From NCBI RefSeq assembly GCF_903969135.1, contig NZ_LR824569.1, forward strand, positions 1,984,001 to 2,048,000: DNA of 64,000 nucleotides. The letters run 5' to 3'. Made by a program: the position numbers and the translations under genes. This DNA comes from Chryseobacterium sp. JV274 (GTDB lineage: Bacteria > Bacteroidota > Bacteroidia > Flavobacteriales > Weeksellaceae). Below, piece after piece: positions 39,944 through 46,034 of the stretch; the stretch's first letter is position 1, and the number at the start of each line of letters is the position of its first letter. The notes beneath the pieces were generated by a model. It was not told where the DNA came from, made no database searches, and saw only the letters and a list, made by a program, of their open reading frames with translations.

Positions 39944-40564
39944 ATGAAGACCAAGGATAAAATTCTGTCTAAAGCGCTGGAGTTATTTAATGACAAGGGA
40001 TATAACAATATTACCACAAGGCATATTGCAGCTGAACTCAATATCAGTGCGGGCAATCTGCATTATCATTTCAGGCACTCAGAAGACATTATTAAAATTC
40101 TTTTCTCAGAGCTTATCCTGAAAATGGATGAACTGCTGAGCCAAATGAAAAAAATAGAGAATAAAAGCCTTGAAGATCTTTATCAGTTTACCTATTCTAT
40201 CTGTGAAATTTTTTATTCTTACCGTTTTATATTTGTCAATTTTATAGATATCCTCAACCAGATTCCTGAAATAGAATCCAGGTATGAAGGGATCAATTTC
40301 AGTAGAAAAGAAGAATTCCAGCTTATCTTTTCAGATCTTCAAAAGAGTAATATTGTTCAGAAAGATGTGCCTCATTTTATCTTAGATTGTCTCATTGAAC
40401 AGATTTTCATTATTGCAGATAACTGGCTTACTCATAACAGACTTATCTTAAAACTCAGTCATAAAGAAGCAATACAGCATTATACGCTTCTGCAGATGAA
40501 TCTTTTTTATCCACTTCTTAATAAAGAACAGCAAAAGCTTTATGAACAGCAGTACATCCAATAG
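39944..40564 (+). CDS. TetR-family transcriptional regulator
   Basis: A 206-residue regulator. HTH: KDKILSKALELFNDKGYNNI, then TTRHIAAELNISAGNLHYHF (residues 3-42). The C-terminal domain, typical of Bacteroidetes TetR proteins (SICEIFYSYRFIFVNFIDIL), is helical. Likely binds the palindrome 46 nt upstream and controls the divergent small membrane operon and itself. Its 3' end overlaps the acetyltransferase gene by 23 nt. Confidence 0.9.
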   Translation: MKTKDKILSKALELFNDKGYNNITTRHIAAELNISAGNLHYHFRHSEDIIKILFSELILKMDELLSQMKKIENKSLEDLYQFTYSICEIFYSYRFIFVNFIDILNQIPEIESRYEGINFSRKEEFQLIFSDLQKSNIVQKDVPHFILDCLIEQIFIIADNWLTHNRLILKLSHKEAIQHYTLLQMNLFYPLLNKEQQKLYEQQYIQ

Positions 40565-41039
40565 TCAAAGCATTACGATCAGAAAAGGGATCAGGAAAGA
40601 TCTCCCTGAAATGCTGGAGCTTTTTACAGCTACTATAGATGAGGTATGCAAAAAAGACTATAATCCCCTACAGCTCGAAGCATGGAAATCCGGTGCTGAG
40701 AACGAGGAAAGATGGATGAATGTGATCAGCAGCCAATATGTTTTAATTGCTGAAAACAGAAAGCAGATTGTTGGTTTCTGTACACTCGATAAGGGAAACT
40801 ATATTGATCTGTTTTTTGTACACAAAAATTATCAACAGAAAGGAATAGCAGCGATGCTTTACCATGAAATTGAAAAAGAAGCTCTGCAACAAGATGAGAG
40901 ACTGCTCACAGCGGATGTAAGCAAAACCGCCAGGCCATTTTTTGAGAAAATTGGTTTTCATGTGATTGAAGAGCAGACTGTTCATGTAAAAGGAATTGCC
41001 CTTATCAATTATAAGATGGAAAAAAAACTCATCTCTTAA
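40542..41039 (+). CDS. GNAT-family N-acetyltransferase
   Basis: A 165-residue acetyl-CoA-dependent transferase. The fold elements are visible: ITIRKGIRKDLPEMLELF (N-terminus), IVGFCTLDKGNYIDLFFVHK (strands 4-5), the CoA-binding QQKGIAAMLYHEIEKEA (Q/R-x-x-G-x-A) and ADVSKTARPFFEKIGFHVIE at the end. Substrate unknown. It overlaps the TetR gene by 23 nt, so both are probably co-transcribed. Confidence 0.85.
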   Translation: MNSSTSNSQSITIRKGIRKDLPEMLELFTATIDEVCKKDYNPLQLEAWKSGAENEERWMNVISSQYVLIAENRKQIVGFCTLDKGNYIDLFFVHKNYQQKGIAAMLYHEIEKEALQQDERLLTADVSKTARPFFEKIGFHVIEEQTVHVKGIALINYKMEKKLIS

Positions 41040-41049
41040 TTTCTGAATT

Positions 41050-41868
41050 ATGAAATTACCACGGGAATACAATGAGTTTAGGATTTCAGTTCCTCAGGAA
41101 TTCGAAAACGTATTTACTCATTTTTATTTTGCTGAAAATATTTCTGATATCTCGGTTACAAAAACTCTTTTACCAACATACCAGACTATTTTGCTATTCT
41201 GCTTTGGAGAAAGTGCCACGATGTCTACCCGGGAAAAGACAATTATTGGTGTTGATAAATGTATGATATTTGGTCCCGTGAGGCAATCTTTTGAATATAC
41301 GCTTCCGGCAGGATGTTCTATTCTTGTAGCCAATTTTAAAGATGATGCTTTTTTCAGATTTTTTGGAAAAGTACCTATTGAACAATCGGTAAGGCATCCA
41401 GATGAACTGCTGGAGGAAAATTGCTTTACCGATCTTTGGTATAAGCTGAAAAAGCTAGATTCAACTACAGAACAAGTGAATCATATTATTGAATTCTGCA
41501 GACCTTATCTTCAGCATCAGGATACTACCAGCAAGCTCTTGAGCTGTTTTGAGAATAACCTCTTAAATCCAGTTAAAGTGATTGCAGAACAAACTCAGCA
41601 GACTGAAAGAAATATTCAGCGCAAACAGAAAGAGCAATTTGGATATTCTCTGAAAGAACTTAACCGCTATAGCCGTTTTTTAAAAGCTGTAAAAATCATT
41701 GAAGAGGAAACCGGAAAGCAGAATAAAGTGAAATGGTTTACTATCATTGATGAATGCGGTTATTATGATCAAAGCCAGCTTATTCATGATTTCAAACATT
41801 TTATGAACATCTCGCCTGCTCAGTATTTAAAATTTCAGCAGGAAATCTGTAATCCAAAGTCTAAATAG
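41050..41868 (+). CDS. AraC-type regulator with DUF6597-like N-terminus
   Basis: A 272-residue regulator. The N-terminal 130 residues match the DUF6597 kind (FENVFTHFYFAENISD, LLPTYQTILLFCFGESATM). The C-terminal AraC domain includes VIAEQTQQTERNIQRKQKEQ and IIDECGYYDQSQLIHDFKHF (about residues 170-262). Ten nt after the acetyltransferase, so probably the third gene of one transcript. Likely target: the adjacent NQO1-type flavoprotein gene. Confidence 0.82.
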   Translation: MKLPREYNEFRISVPQEFENVFTHFYFAENISDISVTKTLLPTYQTILLFCFGESATMSTREKTIIGVDKCMIFGPVRQSFEYTLPAGCSILVANFKDDAFFRFFGKVPIEQSVRHPDELLEENCFTDLWYKLKKLDSTTEQVNHIIEFCRPYLQHQDTTSKLLSCFENNLLNPVKVIAEQTQQTERNIQRKQKEQFGYSLKELNRYSRFLKAVKIIEEETGKQNKVKWFTIIDECGYYDQSQLIHDFKHFMNISPAQYLKFQQEICNPKSK

Positions 41869-41943
41869 CACGTTTCGTTTTCTTACAATTTTTGAAAAGT
41901 ACATCCTGATACTTTTGTCTCATTAATCTTAACAAGAAAAACA

Positions 41944-42543
41944 ATGAGACATTTAATAATTTATGCACATCCTAATGAGAACAGTTTAAATCACAATCTT
42001 TTAAATACGGTTGTTGAAATCCTTCAGTCCCGGAACGAGGAATTTATTGTGAGAGATCTTTATACCATAGGTTTTGATCCTGTACTTTCTTTGTCTGATA
42101 TGCAGGGACAACGCATGGGAAAAATATCAGATGATATAAGAATTGAGCAGGAGTATATTTCATGGGCAGAACAGATTACTTTTATTTATCCTATATGGTG
42201 GACAGGTCTTCCTGCAATGATGAAAGGCTATATAGACCGTGTTTTCAGTTATGATTTTGCCTACCGCTATGATCATGGTATACAGAAAGGGCTTCTGACT
42301 GGTAAAAAAACCGTGATTATCAATACCCATGGAAAATCTCATGAAGAATATGAAAAAACAGATATGGATAAAGCACTTGCTTTAACTTCTGATAACGGAA
42401 TTTTTATCTACTCCGGGCTGGAAATCATCAGACATTTATTTTTTGATAAAGCAGATAAAGCGACTTCAGAAAATCTTGAGATCTGGAAAGAGCAAATTAA
42501 AAACTTATATTCTGAATATGCCTTAATTATTAATAATTCATAA
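41944..42543 (+). CDS. NAD(P)H-dependent oxidoreductase (KefF/MdaB/NQO1 type)
   Basis: A 199-residue flavodoxin-like-fold enzyme. N-terminus MRHLIIYAHPNENSLNHNLL binds FMN/FAD; EQITFIYPIWWTGLPAMMKG is the conserved WW-x-x-P substrate-site segment; GLLTGKKTVIINTHGKSHEE continues the fold. Members reduce quinones in two-electron steps. It lies downstream of an AraC-type regulator on the same strand, consistent with redox or xenobiotic induction. Confidence 0.88.
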   Translation: MRHLIIYAHPNENSLNHNLLNTVVEILQSRNEEFIVRDLYTIGFDPVLSLSDMQGQRMGKISDDIRIEQEYISWAEQITFIYPIWWTGLPAMMKGYIDRVFSYDFAYRYDHGIQKGLLTGKKTVIINTHGKSHEEYEKTDMDKALALTSDNGIFIYSGLEIIRHLFFDKADKATSENLEIWKEQIKNLYSEYALIINNS

Positions 42544-42716
42544 AAATAAACACTGTTAAACAAGCCATTAACTCTTTATTAATCAACACCTATAAACTGA
42601 CAAAGAAAATAATAAAAAACAGTTTTCACATCTTTATCCTGTATTTTGCTTTTAAGAGATTTATGGCATGAAATTAGCTTCAAAAACCGCAAGTAAAATT
42701 GTTTTGAACCATTATT

Positions 42717-42801
42717 TTAAGCCATTAAGATAGATGGATGGTTAAGTTTTTTCTTAAAAACAAATCTTGTTATAACCCTGCAATACGTCTTAATGGTTTA
42801 A
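42717..42801. repeat. Long-range inverted repeat before the tyrS leader
   Basis: TTAAGCCATTAAGA (42717-42730) and TCTTAATGGTTTAA (42788-42801) pair at 13 of 14 positions with 57 nt between. A T-run sits in the middle. It may be a terminator or a repeat element; a related CATTAAG pattern appears at 54394-54415. Confidence 0.4.
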
Positions 42802-42804
42802 ATA

Positions 42805-42834
42805 TTGGATCTTCAGGAAATTCCTGTATAATGA
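42805..42834 (+). promoter_or_regulatory. Promoter of the tyrS leader
   Basis: TTG (42805-42807), 19 nt, TATAATGA (42827-42834), a relaxed match to the Bacteroidetes consensus. Between the elements lies the perfect palindrome CAGGAATTCCTG with one central A (42814-42826), possibly a second control. Predicted start of RNA is 42838-42841, at the leader peptide ATG. Confidence 0.45.
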
Positions 42835-42841
42835 CAACATT

Positions 42842-42940
42842 ATGAAACATTTAAACAGTATACTACGTCTTCCATTCTTCAGTGAATATTATGCTCCGAG
42901 CTATCGTTCGGGAAGACTTTCTATATCTGTAATTCAATAA
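42842..42940 (+). CDS. Tyrosine-rich leader peptide of tyrS
   Basis: A 32-residue frame (MKHLNSILRLPFFSEYYAPS, then YRSGRLSISVIQ). It holds tandem Tyr codons at 42887-42892 and another at 42902-42904, and encodes no recognisable domain. It lies 70 nt before tyrS and is followed by a terminator. Stalling at the Tyr codons would cover the first strand of the hairpin at 42896-42911. The peptide is probably not functional by itself; its translation senses charged tRNA-Tyr. Confidence 0.7.
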   Translation: MKHLNSILRLPFFSEYYAPSYRSGRLSISVIQ

Positions 42941-42988
42941 AATAATCTAACGTATATATAGAGCCCGGACAGTACCTGTCCGGGTTTT
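42896..42988 (+). promoter_or_regulatory. Tyrosine attenuator: mutually exclusive RNA hairpins
   Basis: Three pairings are visible. Strand 1:2 is CCGAGC (42896-42901) with GTTCGG (42906-42911), loop TATC. Strand 2:3 (antiterminator) is GTTCGGG (42906-42912) with CCCGGAC (42964-42970), seven pairs including one G-T. Strand 3:4 (terminator) is CCCGGACAG (42964-42972) with CTGTCCGGG (42976-42984), loop TAC, then TTTT. 1:2 and 3:4 can coexist; 2:3 excludes both. A ribosome stalled on the tandem Tyr codons would block strand 1 and favour 2:3, allowing tyrS transcription. Confidence 0.7.
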
Positions 42989-43009
42989 CTCATTTTAAAA
43001 CTATTCAAC

Positions 43010-44209
43010 ATGATCCATTTATTACAAGAAAATGTGGCTATCATTCTGCCTGAAAATGGGCTGGAAGAAAAACTTACACAAGCCAAAGAGGAAAAGAGAA
43101 AACTATCTATCAAGCTGGGGTTTGATCCTACTGCTCCGGATCTGCATCTGGGACATGCAGTAGTATTAAAAAAGCTGAAACAATTTCAGGATCTGGGACA
43201 TCAGATCATTATAGTGGTAGGAAGCTTTACAGCAAGAATTGGTGATCCTACAGGGAAAAATAAAGCCCGAAAACCTTTAAGTGCTGAAGAAGTACAGCAT
43301 AATGCCCAGACGTATATCAATCAACTTTCCAAGGTCATTGATGTTCAGAAGACAAAGATTGTGTTTAATTCTGACTGGTTGGATGCGCTTGACTTTTCAG
43401 AGGTTATCCAGCTGTTATCAAAAGTAACTGTTGCTCAATTGATGCACCGCAATGATTTTAATAAAAGATTTACAGAAAACACTCCTATTGCCATGCATGA
43501 ACTTGTATATCCAATTCTTCAGGGGTTTGATTCTGTAAAAATTGAGTGTGACATCGAAATGGGTGGTACAGATCAGCTTTTCAACTGTACCATGGGAAGA
43601 CAGCTTCAGGAGGTGCACGGAATGCCTGCACAGATCGTCATGTGTATGCCATTGCTGAGAGGTCTGGACGGAAAGGAAAAAATGAGCAAATCCCTGAACA
43701 ATATTATCGGCCTGACAGATGGGCCGAATGAAATGTTCGGAAAAACGATGTCGATTCCCGATGCTTTGATTGAGGAGTTTATCAACCTGGCCACAGATTT
43801 TTCAGTGGAAGAAAAAACGATTCTTGTTTCAAAAATGGCAGAAGGCGAAAATCCTATGAATATTAAAAAACTCATTGCCAAAAATATCATCAGTCAATAC
43901 CATGACGTTGCTTCAGCAGAAAATGCGGAACAATTCTTTATCAATCAGTTTCAGAATAAAAATTTTGAAGAGAAAGTGTATGAGCCTGTTTCTATAGGTT
44001 CTTTGAAGAACAGCCAAAATAAAGTATCTCTTGTGGAACTTTGCCATCAGCTTAAAAGTGACCTCAGCAAATCGGCGATCCGGAGACTGATTGAGAATGG
44101 AGGAATTCAAATCAATAACAGTAAAATAACGGACTCTAATGAAGAAATGGAACTGATCCCTCAAACCAAAATAAAGATCGGGAAAAGGGGCTTTTTTGAG
44201 CTGATATAA
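43010..44209 (+). CDS. tyrS: Tyrosine--tRNA ligase
   Basis: A 399-residue class Ic synthetase. HIGH-type motif HLGH at residues 47-50 (PDLHLGHAVVLKKLKQF), KMSKS in GKEKMSKSLNNIIG at about residues 223-227, and a C-terminal S4-like RNA-binding domain (KSAIRRLIENGGIQINNSKI, about 345-365). Preceding it is a predicted attenuator with a Tyr-rich leader peptide, so expression should rise when tRNA-Tyr charging falls. Confidence 0.97.
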   Translation: MIHLLQENVAIILPENGLEEKLTQAKEEKRKLSIKLGFDPTAPDLHLGHAVVLKKLKQFQDLGHQIIIVVGSFTARIGDPTGKNKARKPLSAEEVQHNAQTYINQLSKVIDVQKTKIVFNSDWLDALDFSEVIQLLSKVTVAQLMHRNDFNKRFTENTPIAMHELVYPILQGFDSVKIECDIEMGGTDQLFNCTMGRQLQEVHGMPAQIVMCMPLLRGLDGKEKMSKSLNNIIGLTDGPNEMFGKTMSIPDALIEEFINLATDFSVEEKTILVSKMAEGENPMNIKKLIAKNIISQYHDVASAENAEQFFINQFQNKNFEEKVYEPVSIGSLKNSQNKVSLVELCHQLKSDLSKSAIRRLIENGGIQINNSKITDSNEEMELIPQTKIKIGKRGFFELI

Positions 44210-44213
44210 AGCG

Positions 44214-44369
44214 AGAAGATGGGAGCTGGAAGAGGGAAGTTTTTGAAAGACGATGAACTTATAAAGTTTTTTGATAGGAATATTTTTTAAACAGAAGTTA
44301 AAATTAAAAAATACAGAAGTTCCTTACAGTCCAAAAATAACTTCCAGCTTCCCTCTCCCATCTTCCATC
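44214..44369. repeat. Imperfect inverted repeat after tyrS
   Basis: The left arm AGAAGATGGGAGCTGGAAG (44214-44232) continues to GAGGGAAGT. The right arm (44339-44369), inverted, reads similarly: CTTCCAGCTTCCCTCTCCC. A weaker relative (GAAGCAGGAAGCGGGATGAA) lies at 26822-26841. It looks like a dispersed repeat family. Confidence 0.5.
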
Positions 44370-44414
44370 CTTCAACTTATTTCAATATCTTCGTTTTCTA
44401 AAAACTATTTTCCA

Positions 44415-44936
44415 ATGAGCTACATCATGGTAGACATAGAGTCAGACGGCCCGATTCCAGGAGATTTTTCCATGGTCTGCTTCGGAGCAGTACTTGTGAA
44501 TGAGGAACTGGACACCACTTTTTATGGAAAACTGAAGCCTATTTCTGAAAAATTTAACCCTGATGCTTTAGCGGTTTCCGGTTTCAGCAGAGAAGAAACA
44601 ATGAATTTTGATGATCCGGAAAAGGTAATGCTTGCTTTTGAAAACTGGATTAAAATACATTCTAAAGGCAGACCGATATTCATCAGTGATAATAATGGTT
44701 TCGACTGGATGTTTATCTGCTGGTATTTCCATCATTTTATCGGACGGAATCCTTTTGGCTTTTCTTCGAGAAGACTTTCTGATCTTTATTGCGGACTGGA
44801 AAAAGATACTTTTGCCCAATGGAAACATCTGCGTAAAACCGAACATACCCACAATCCGGTAGATGATGCCAGAGGAAATGCTGAGGTTCTGCTCTACATG
44901 AAAGAAGAGATGGGACTGAAAATAAGTTTTAAATAG
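44415..44936 (+). CDS. DEDD-family 3'-5' exonuclease
   Basis: A 173-residue protein. The first acidic pair is in IMVDIESDGPIPG (D7 and E9), a second acidic residue lies in FISDNNGFDWMF, and the last motif is HNPVDDARGNAE near residue 150, giving the DEDDh set with H. The closest type is the single-domain 3'-5' exoribonuclease family. The start at 44415 places exonuclease motif I at the N-terminus; the longer frame to 44271 is a translation of the repeat region. Confidence 0.85.
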   Translation: MSYIMVDIESDGPIPGDFSMVCFGAVLVNEELDTTFYGKLKPISEKFNPDALAVSGFSREETMNFDDPEKVMLAFENWIKIHSKGRPIFISDNNGFDWMFICWYFHHFIGRNPFGFSSRRLSDLYCGLEKDTFAQWKHLRKTEHTHNPVDDARGNAEVLLYMKEEMGLKISFK

Positions 44937-44949
44937 CCTTTATCAACTT

Positions 44950-45454
44950 ATGGGAAAAGATACTTCAATTTATATGTTTGACAATGAAAAGGCGGCAGTG
45001 AATCTTTATGAGGATCTACGGCATAGAATGTATCATACCCAGACATTCAGAGGTTATATTAATGACAGAAGAAAGGCTCTGAATAATGATAAAATCAGCT
45101 TCGATAGAATACTGGAGACCATCAAATGATATCAACAGTATTACTCCTGACGATATGCTGGAAATCACGTTGTTCTTTAGAAGTCAGATTGAGCCTCTCT
45201 TTTATCATGATTCCTGGGAAGCAAGGAATGAATATTTTGAAACATTATATCAATATTTAGGAATTTTTTGGCTTTACGAGTTTCCTAATGCTGCAGCATA
45301 TTATGGCTATATGCATCAATACGAAAATTACACTGAGTTCTTCCCCATTAGCATGCTGAAGAATTATCAGTCGGGTATCAGTATCTGCTCAGAAGATTTT
45401 CTGCTCTTCAACGATTATGTAATTTGGGTCACAAAGAAAATTCTTGATCGGTAG
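44950..45454 (+). pseudogene. Frameshifted gene of unknown function
   Basis: A 59-codon frame (MGKDTSIYMFDNEKAAVNLY onward) stops at TGA 45127-45129, while a +1 frame continues to 45454 (ITPDDMLEITLFFRSQIEPL, ending YVIWVTKKILDR). If one A is removed from the AAA at 45124-45126, the two join smoothly as LETINDINSITPDD, giving one protein of about 167 residues. I do not recognise the family. The break is a sequencing error, a recent inactivating indel or, less likely, recoding. Confidence 0.65.
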
Positions 45455-45593
45455 TCATTCTGTTCTCCATTCTTATTCTTTCTTCCGGAAATCTATAGAA
45501 ATGAAATCCAGAATTGATGCAAAAAAATCCAAAAATTCTTATCTTAGAGTCTTATTAATGCTGATATAGCCTAAAATTGGAATTCCAAAAAAT

Positions 45594-46034
45594 ATGAGTA
45601 CTTCCCTTATTTACCGAAAAGCTACTGACAACGACATCGATTATCTTCTTGATCTGAGAATGAAAACCATGAATCCTCATTATGAAACTTCAGGACTTTC
45701 TACCGACAGAGATACCACCCTGCAAAGAGTTCTGTACCAGTTTGAAAAAGCTGATATTATTCTTTTAGACAATCAACCCGTCGGACTGTTAAAAGTAGAC
45801 CGAACATTTACCAACATTGAGGTTCTGCAACTTCAGATTGATCCCAGCCAACAAGGTAAAGGTCTTGGAAAAAAGATTTTGTCAGATATTCTGGAGGAAG
45901 CTTCATTAGCCGGGAAAACGGTATCATTAAGTGTTTTAAAAACCAACAAGGCACAGCATCTTTATATAAGTCTTGGGTTTAAGATTACAGGGGAAGATGA
46001 GTATTCCTATTTTATGGAAACGGAAAGGCAGTAA
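45594..46034 (+). CDS. GNAT-family N-acetyltransferase
   Basis: A 146-residue protein with the GNAT fold: LIYRKATDNDIDYLLDLRMK, QPVGLLKVDRTFTNIEVLQL, the CoA motif QQGKGLGKKILSDILEEASL, then SVLKTNKAQHLYISLGFKIT. The pattern Q-x-x-G-x-G is intact. Substrate unknown. It stands alone between a frameshifted gene and a repeat. Confidence 0.88.
   Translation: MSTSLIYRKATDNDIDYLLDLRMKTMNPHYETSGLSTDRDTTLQRVLYQFEKADIILLDNQPVGLLKVDRTFTNIEVLQLQIDPSQQGKGLGKKILSDILEEASLAGKTVSLSVLKTNKAQHLYISLGFKITGEDEYSYFMETERQ

Follow-up and report, generated by a model that had tools for sequence, protein, structure and literature searches.

A tandem-tyrosine leader with a conserved peptide head, a probable transcription attenuator ahead of an accessory tyrosyl-tRNA synthetase gene in Chryseobacterium

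What controls the tyrosyl-tRNA synthetase gene tyrS of Chryseobacterium sp. JV274, and does the peptide encoded in its leader do more than present codons to the ribosome? The gene lies in a window of 64,000 nucleotides (G000:C1:1984001-2048000), the whole stretch of DNA that was analysed, in a source genome of 5.23 Mb on a single contig. A first-pass annotation of the window read the region ahead of tyrS as a tyrosine attenuator, with a 32-residue leader peptide, tandem Tyr codons and a further Tyr codon at 42902, and an intrinsic terminator about 25 nt ahead of the gene; the codons and both terminator arms are confirmed in the sequence (Table 1). Comparison with relatives and folding models indicate that a ribosome-mediated transcription attenuator very probably turns on tyrS, the gene of an accessory enzyme, when charged tRNA-Tyr is short. 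The elements are genuine, and the proposed mechanism has good comparative support. The more surprising addition, beyond the attenuator, is the conservation of the head of the leader peptide at the protein level.

Table 1. Elements of the tyrS leader and gene, numbered from the first letter of the window.
Feature	Coordinates	Strand	Remarks
Probable sigma-A promoter	42805..42834	+	TTGG 42805-42808, -7 box TATAATGA 42827-42834; placed from relatives
Leader peptide ORF, 32 aa, MKHLNSILRLPFFSEYYAPSYRSGRLSISVIQ	42842..42940	+	codons 2-17 conserved as protein, remainder not
Strand A, codons 9-11 (RLP)	42867..42873	+	predicted partner 42911-42917, giving the sequestering helix
Control codons Tyr16-Tyr17, TAT TAT	42887..42892	+	kept in 106/107 loci
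Small hairpin CGAGC/GTTCG	42897..42910	+	contains strand B; trimmed version of the first-pass 1:2 hairpin
Strand B (= strand 2), GTTCGGG, antiterminator arm	42906..42912	+	starts at leader nt 64-68 in 107/107 leaders
Strand C, partner of strand A	42911..42917	+	predicted fold
Second antiterminator arm, TCTATAT	42920..42926	+	partner 42956-42962; 87.6% of cells paired
Intrinsic terminator (strands 3 and 4, T run)	42960..42988	+	hairpin in all 107 leaders
Strand 3, CCCGGAC	42964..42970	+	terminator arms 42964-42972/42976-42984, then TTTT
Auxiliary tyrosyl-tRNA synthetase gene tyrS, 399 aa, KMSKS	43010..44209	+	putative regulated gene; ATG at 43010

The tyrS product, a match to TIGR00234, contains the motifs HLGH and KMSKS. 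Bacterial tyrosyl-tRNA synthetases (TyrRS) fall into two kinds, distinguished by KMSKS or KFGKS, and a second, diverged TyrRS-like protein, assigned from similarity and motifs (28% identical, HIG and KFGKS), is encoded in the same genome at G000:C1:4301602-4302762. The KFGKS protein would be the housekeeping enzyme and the KMSKS protein an auxiliary one; no such leader is seen, on reading by eye, in the 250 nt upstream of the KFGKS gene. Control of tyrS by the attenuator, as first annotated, is an interpretation that the comparison supports, with the amendment that the gene is an accessory TyrRS and not the sole tyrS of the genome.

The distribution of the KMSKS gene is patchy. At E <= 1e-60 it is found in 27 of 35 other congeners searched and in 0 of 23 genomes of other genera, and among 395 sampled genomes of the class it occurs in the JV274 genome only. 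Beyond the class, 269 genomes of the phylum sample hold a relative, with 40-47% identity among the matches listed, and relatives 73-94% identical are distributed, among the best 80 of 192, over Chryseobacterium, Flavobacterium, Gelidibacter, Arenibacter, Oceanihabitans, Vaginella, Weeksella and Telluribacter. The flanking frames differ between lineages, and no conserved neighbour gene is recognised in 14 loci read by eye. Searches of viral contigs return no relative; 13 plasmid records match, every one below 60% identity. The leader occurs with the gene amid differing neighbours, and horizontal spread seems likely.

The leader accompanies the gene throughout these relatives. An ORF sharing the head of the peptide begins 164-192 nt ahead of the tyrS match in 107/107 loci (80 + 27, the window's own included; several represent one genome under two identifiers, and 94 distinct sequences are present among 108 loci, with L029, at a contig end, not counted and L140, with offset coordinates, omitted). 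These loci were mostly found by the gene, and the reverse direction is covered by searches with the leader in the class and in 12 congeners. In the latter, the leader alignment matches strongly in 4/4 genomes with the gene (E = 1.4e-12 or better), and in 8/8 congeners without a KMSKS tyrS no leader match falls below E = 0.07; of 295 genomes of the class, 7 have a leader match at E <= 0.01, and the whole model is covered in the JV274 genome only. Among 27 loci of distant TyrRS genes from the 269 phylum genomes, 26 have no upstream ORF of 10-60 aa bearing YY, PFF or LRLP, and the remaining one has YY within an unrelated peptide.

The control codons are retained almost without exception, both Tyr16 and Tyr17 being present in 106 of the 107 loci and in 81/81 of the best relatives plus the window, and codon 18 is Tyr as well in 30 of these 81. 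The absence of Tyr codons, or of the pairing of strands 2 and 3, from the leaders of relatives had been named in advance as grounds for rejecting an attenuator; the hypothesis survives on both counts. Two near-universal Tyr codons are nonetheless few for an attenuator, and their number counts against the attenuator reading. Codon 16 is TAT in 81/81 loci (42887-42889 in the window), and codon 17 is divided between TAT (47 loci) and TAC (34); the uniformity of codon 16 perhaps reflects RNA pairing in the distant group, or slow decoding. The sole Tyr-Asp at codons 16-17 among the 107 loci belongs to L027 (G003), in which the head, strand B and the terminator are retained.

Downstream of the Tyr codons, the leader has two mutually exclusive pairings. 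The alternative pairing of strand B with strand 3, proposed at first pass, is present in the window and recurs in two diverged groups of relatives, represented by 49 of 87 short-type leaders, hand-picked for diversity, and by 20 longer, more distant leaders. B:3 is paired in 343/343 cells of the short-type set and in 98.6% of cells of the distant set. When the partners are slid by 1-3 columns, pairing of the whole antiterminator drops from 93.8% to 27-53% (short-type) and from 88.8% to 23-42% (distant); the structures were drawn from members of the alignments, so the percentages paired are favoured. An additional antiterminator helix, formed by the second arm in Table 1, extends the pairing first described, its degree of pairing referring to the 49 short-type leaders. 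Between the groups, the two arms change jointly, GTTCGG occurring with CCGAAC or CCGGAC and GCTCGG with CCGAGC or CCGGGC. Within either set, B:3 shows no covariation beyond shuffles, because it hardly varies; the antiterminator is conserved without such a signal.

The intrinsic terminator lies between leader and gene, its hairpin being recognised by scan in 106 leaders and by eye in L024. Measured against shuffles, which take no account of relatedness among the sequences, it surpasses all 500 in both sets in percentage paired, in cells changed on both sides and in score. For pairs changed, the corresponding counts are 12/500 shuffles in the distant set, a weak signal, and 431/500 in the short-type set, which does not exceed them; for pair types they are 377/500 and 431/500, exceeding in neither set. 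The region 42830-42995 folds with z = -4.53, none of 200 shuffles being equally stable, and its low folding energy is due in large part to the terminator hairpin. In the predicted sequestering fold, codons 9-11 pair with the segment that follows strand B, a longer-range addition to the first-pass structure, and an inner hairpin is enclosed. In the 20 distant leaders this fold goes beyond shuffles on five measures (0/500 on four, 2/500 on the fifth), with 5 pairs changed on both sides, and in the 49 short-type leaders it is at or below shuffles. The 1:2 hairpin of the first-pass annotation, 42896-42901 with 42906-42911, is present and only partly conserved: in the small hairpin the two outer pairs never vary, and the inner pairs fail in many relatives.

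The position of a stalled ribosome was modelled by folding each leader to the end of strand 3 with an assumed footprint masked, from -15 to +16 nt of the P-site codon. A leader is called ON at >= 4 expected B:3 pairs, an assumed cut-off in a model of equilibrium and not of kinetics, and L024 is left out (n=106) because the terminator scan needs TTTT. With A-site codons 15, 16 and 17, the antiterminator is predicted to form in 106/106 leaders; the number falls to 40/106 with codon 18 in the A site and to 0 over codons 19-29, is 9-45 over codons 30-33, and lies at 34-83 of 106 for codons 3-14. Across six footprints tried, codon 16 always gives 106/106 and codon 17 at least 99, and neighbouring codons enter or leave the ON range depending on the footprint assumed. 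The modelled stall position thus agrees with codons 16-17, in line with the earlier proposal that a ribosome on the tandem Tyr codons would leave strand 2 free. With no ribosome, 47/106 leaders favour B:3 in the folding model, as do 27/106 when the A site holds the stop codon; OFF is therefore not the default in every leader. Antitermination of the free RNA implies that OFF in many leaders must need ribosome passage, or kinetics outside the model.

In the proposed switch, transcription would begin a few nucleotides ahead of the leader ATG. When Tyr-tRNA is ample, the ribosome would pass codon 17 and either cover strand B or let it refold behind; with strand B unavailable, RNA polymerase would stop at the terminator. 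When Tyr-tRNA is short, the ribosome would pause with its A site on Tyr16 or Tyr17, covering strand A and the small hairpin and leaving strand B free. The free strand would then pair with strand 3, blocking the terminator, and tyrS would be transcribed.

The promoter is placed by comparison. Of 102 loci scored, 101 have a TAnnTTTG-like box 4-9 nt ahead of the leader ATG, by a loose pattern that carries no chance estimate, and 5 further loci of the 107 have no match to the pattern. The -7 box of the window itself is a poor match, with 1/4 in TTTG. In F. psychrophilum, the promoter box is located at -12 to -5, according to PMC9723704; the same spacing would give a 5' untranslated stretch of 0-5 nt, with the leader ATG 0-5 nt from the predicted start, and transcription in the window is predicted to start at about 42839. 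An inverted repeat, CAGGAAATTCCTG, is situated at 42814-42826 within the promoter spacer. In 50/107 loci, palindromes with arms of >= 5 lie between 45 and 8 nt ahead of the leader ATG, a count with no chance estimate, and the spacer repeat is possibly an operator in some Chryseobacterium.

The head of the leader peptide, MKxLNxILRLPFFSxYY, is conserved. Substitutions were counted by parsimony on a tyrS tree of 85 leaves, a measure distinct from likelihood dN/dS. Codons 2-17 show 42, 30 and 155 changes at positions 1, 2 and 3 (72 at positions 1+2), whereas codons 18-28 show 110, 103 and 88 (213 at positions 1+2), a contrast with Fisher p = 4e-19; in tyrS, the corresponding rates at the three positions are 5.5, 3.0 and 18.6 changes per codon. 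In 12 core head codons, picked after their conservation had been seen, 125 codon changes result in 10 amino-acid changes. The tail varies in sequence and in length (peptide of 24-36 aa) and is read in a different frame in L061 and L109. The position-3 excess in codons 2-17, with none in the tail, means that selection keeps the head, unlike the tail, at the protein level. The residues under this selection precede the stall site, and conservation that ends at the stall codons suggests a nascent-chain arrest element.

We infer that the conservation of residues 2-17 reflects a nascent chain which would prolong ribosome pausing at the Tyr codons. The length of MKxLNxILRLPFFSx would suit the exit tunnel of a ribosome whose A site is receiving the Tyr codons. 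A tentative reading, with somewhat less than an even chance of being right, is a dual-input switch in which this segment would act as an arrest module, slowing the ribosome at two hungry Tyr codons or answering a small molecule, and in which module and accessory TyrRS would make up a near-leaderless unit that regulates itself and recurs in scattered lineages of Bacteroidota. With an arrest module slowing the ribosome, two Tyr codons would suffice where classical leaders use many.

The head could instead be conserved for reasons unrelated to the peptide, namely pairing of the RNA, the context of the start site or a recent spread of the cassette, in which case the leader would be a plain amino-acid attenuator of irrelevant peptide sequence. 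This alternative is less likely than not. Codons 9-11 do lie in strand A, codons 16-18 lie in a Tyr hairpin of the distant group, and the gene is patchy; yet the conserved Leu4, Asn5, Ile7, Leu8, Phe12 and Phe13 are outside strand A, and both the head-to-tail contrast in codon positions and the few amino-acid changes in the core codons, chosen post hoc, argue for a constraint on the peptide itself.

A histidine leader, MKPxFLxxHH..HHLC (MKPxFLxxHHYYHHLC-like), precedes hisG in 30/30 Chryseobacterium genomes checked and provides a partial control; it is likely a second attenuator in the genus. In the JV274 genome, the His leader (L196) lies about 205 nt ahead of the hisG HMM match. With 30 genomes of one genus and few changes, codons 2-8 of the His leader have 11 changes at positions 1+2 and 14 at position 3, and codons 4-8 have 11 and 10, with no position-3 excess. 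These counts suggest a weak, less certain trend at the protein level, mainly at Pro3. The control bears on the plain attenuator in both directions: the His leader likewise holds Pro3 and has a slight position-3 excess over codons 2-8, but its codons 4-8 lack the excess that marks the Tyr head.

Unlikely, though in keeping with conservation that ends at the stall codons, is a ligand-sensing arrest peptide, in which free tyrosine, an analogue or an inhibitor would act with the ILRLPFFS chain to stall the ribosome at Tyr16-17, and not starvation alone. In other systems, accessory synthetases respond to inhibitors or to non-protein amino acids, as described in PMC9437257, where two-synthetase systems are reviewed and TrpRS1 is indolmycin resistant. 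Against a ligand, tRNA charging is the simplest signal, given two Tyr codons and the nature of the gene product. To our knowledge, no ligand has been described for this Tyr leader peptide. Selection on residues 2-17 would also be expected if the leader encoded a functional small protein in which the Tyr pair is incidental, but this is highly improbable given the variable and frame-shifting tail, the tightly kept distance from the Tyr codons to strand B, and a leader not found in any of the 8 congeners searched that have no KMSKS tyrS. Control by a T box or another riboswitch, for which the T box reportedly ahead of B. subtilis tyrZ would be the precedent, is scarcely conceivable here, as no Rfam match at E <= 1 lies within 40000-46000 save one weak snoRNA match elsewhere, no T-box match is found at the gene, and L001 and L100 have no Rfam match at gathering scores.

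A wider family of leaders with the LRLPFF head and other control codons was considered and rejected. The JV274 genome has 22 motif matches on both strands, against 19 in a reversed control, and none of the 21 other places is leader-like when the frames are read by eye. One of them, at G000:C1:3435282, reads NILRLPFF, with no Met before it and no single-residue run after it. In genome G303, an ILRLPFFSKYY stretch with DNA close to that of the leader head is located at about 1501-1572 of L133, among simple repeats ahead of a 23S_rRNA_IVP gene; no tyrS is found in the 3 kb of sequence examined there, and a second copy is listed as L139. The G303 stretch may be a relic or chance.

The element would be a Tyr-specific attenuator on an accessory TyrRS in Bacteroidota, at a gene where no T box is found. 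It would serve as a natural sensor of Tyr-tRNA charging and as a lead to the purpose of the accessory TyrRS, and it makes testable whether attenuator leader peptides act as passive rulers of codons or actively promote stalling. The first-pass annotation knew of no tyrosine attenuator of this kind in the phylum. Leader-peptide attenuation is not itself new there, because it was proposed before amino-acid operons of F. psychrophilum and because of the His leader of hisG. The transcriptome of that species (PMC9723704) has 5' elements before pheA, hisG and alaS, which resemble the present case in phylum and in the leader-peptide attenuation proposed, there ahead of biosynthesis operons, and tyrS is absent from the main text of PMC9723704. 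No paper on a tyrS leader peptide was found in a literature search judged by titles and the starts of abstracts, with most subscription journals outside its range.

Other known systems share single traits with the Chryseobacterium leader. In the pheST, trp, his and phe leaders of E. coli, stalling at cognate codons picks the antiterminator over the terminator, as proposed here; these leaders usually have more control codons than the Tyr leader, and we know of no comparable protein-level constraint on their peptides. The TnaC and Erm leader arrest peptides have conserved residues just ahead of the stall site, like the Tyr leader, but they need a ligand, and none is known for the Tyr leader. The tyrZ gene of B. 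subtilis, also an accessory tyrosyl-tRNA synthetase gene under RNA control, is reportedly governed by a T box and a MarR regulator, going by the title of a paper, in place of the leader peptide found here. The closest known system would be the attenuated auxiliary TrpRS gene of Streptomyces coelicolor, in which, as Vecchione and Sello reportedly described in 2010, an antibiotic-resistant TrpRS is under ribosome-mediated attenuation. Both cases would join an accessory synthetase, present beside another, with ribosome-mediated attenuation; the amino acid and phylum differ, being Trp and Actinobacteria there and Tyr and Bacteroidota here, and a link to a drug is not part of the reading of the Chryseobacterium element. 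In the latter, the leader start codon lies almost at the predicted transcript end, and the peptide head is conserved across genera.
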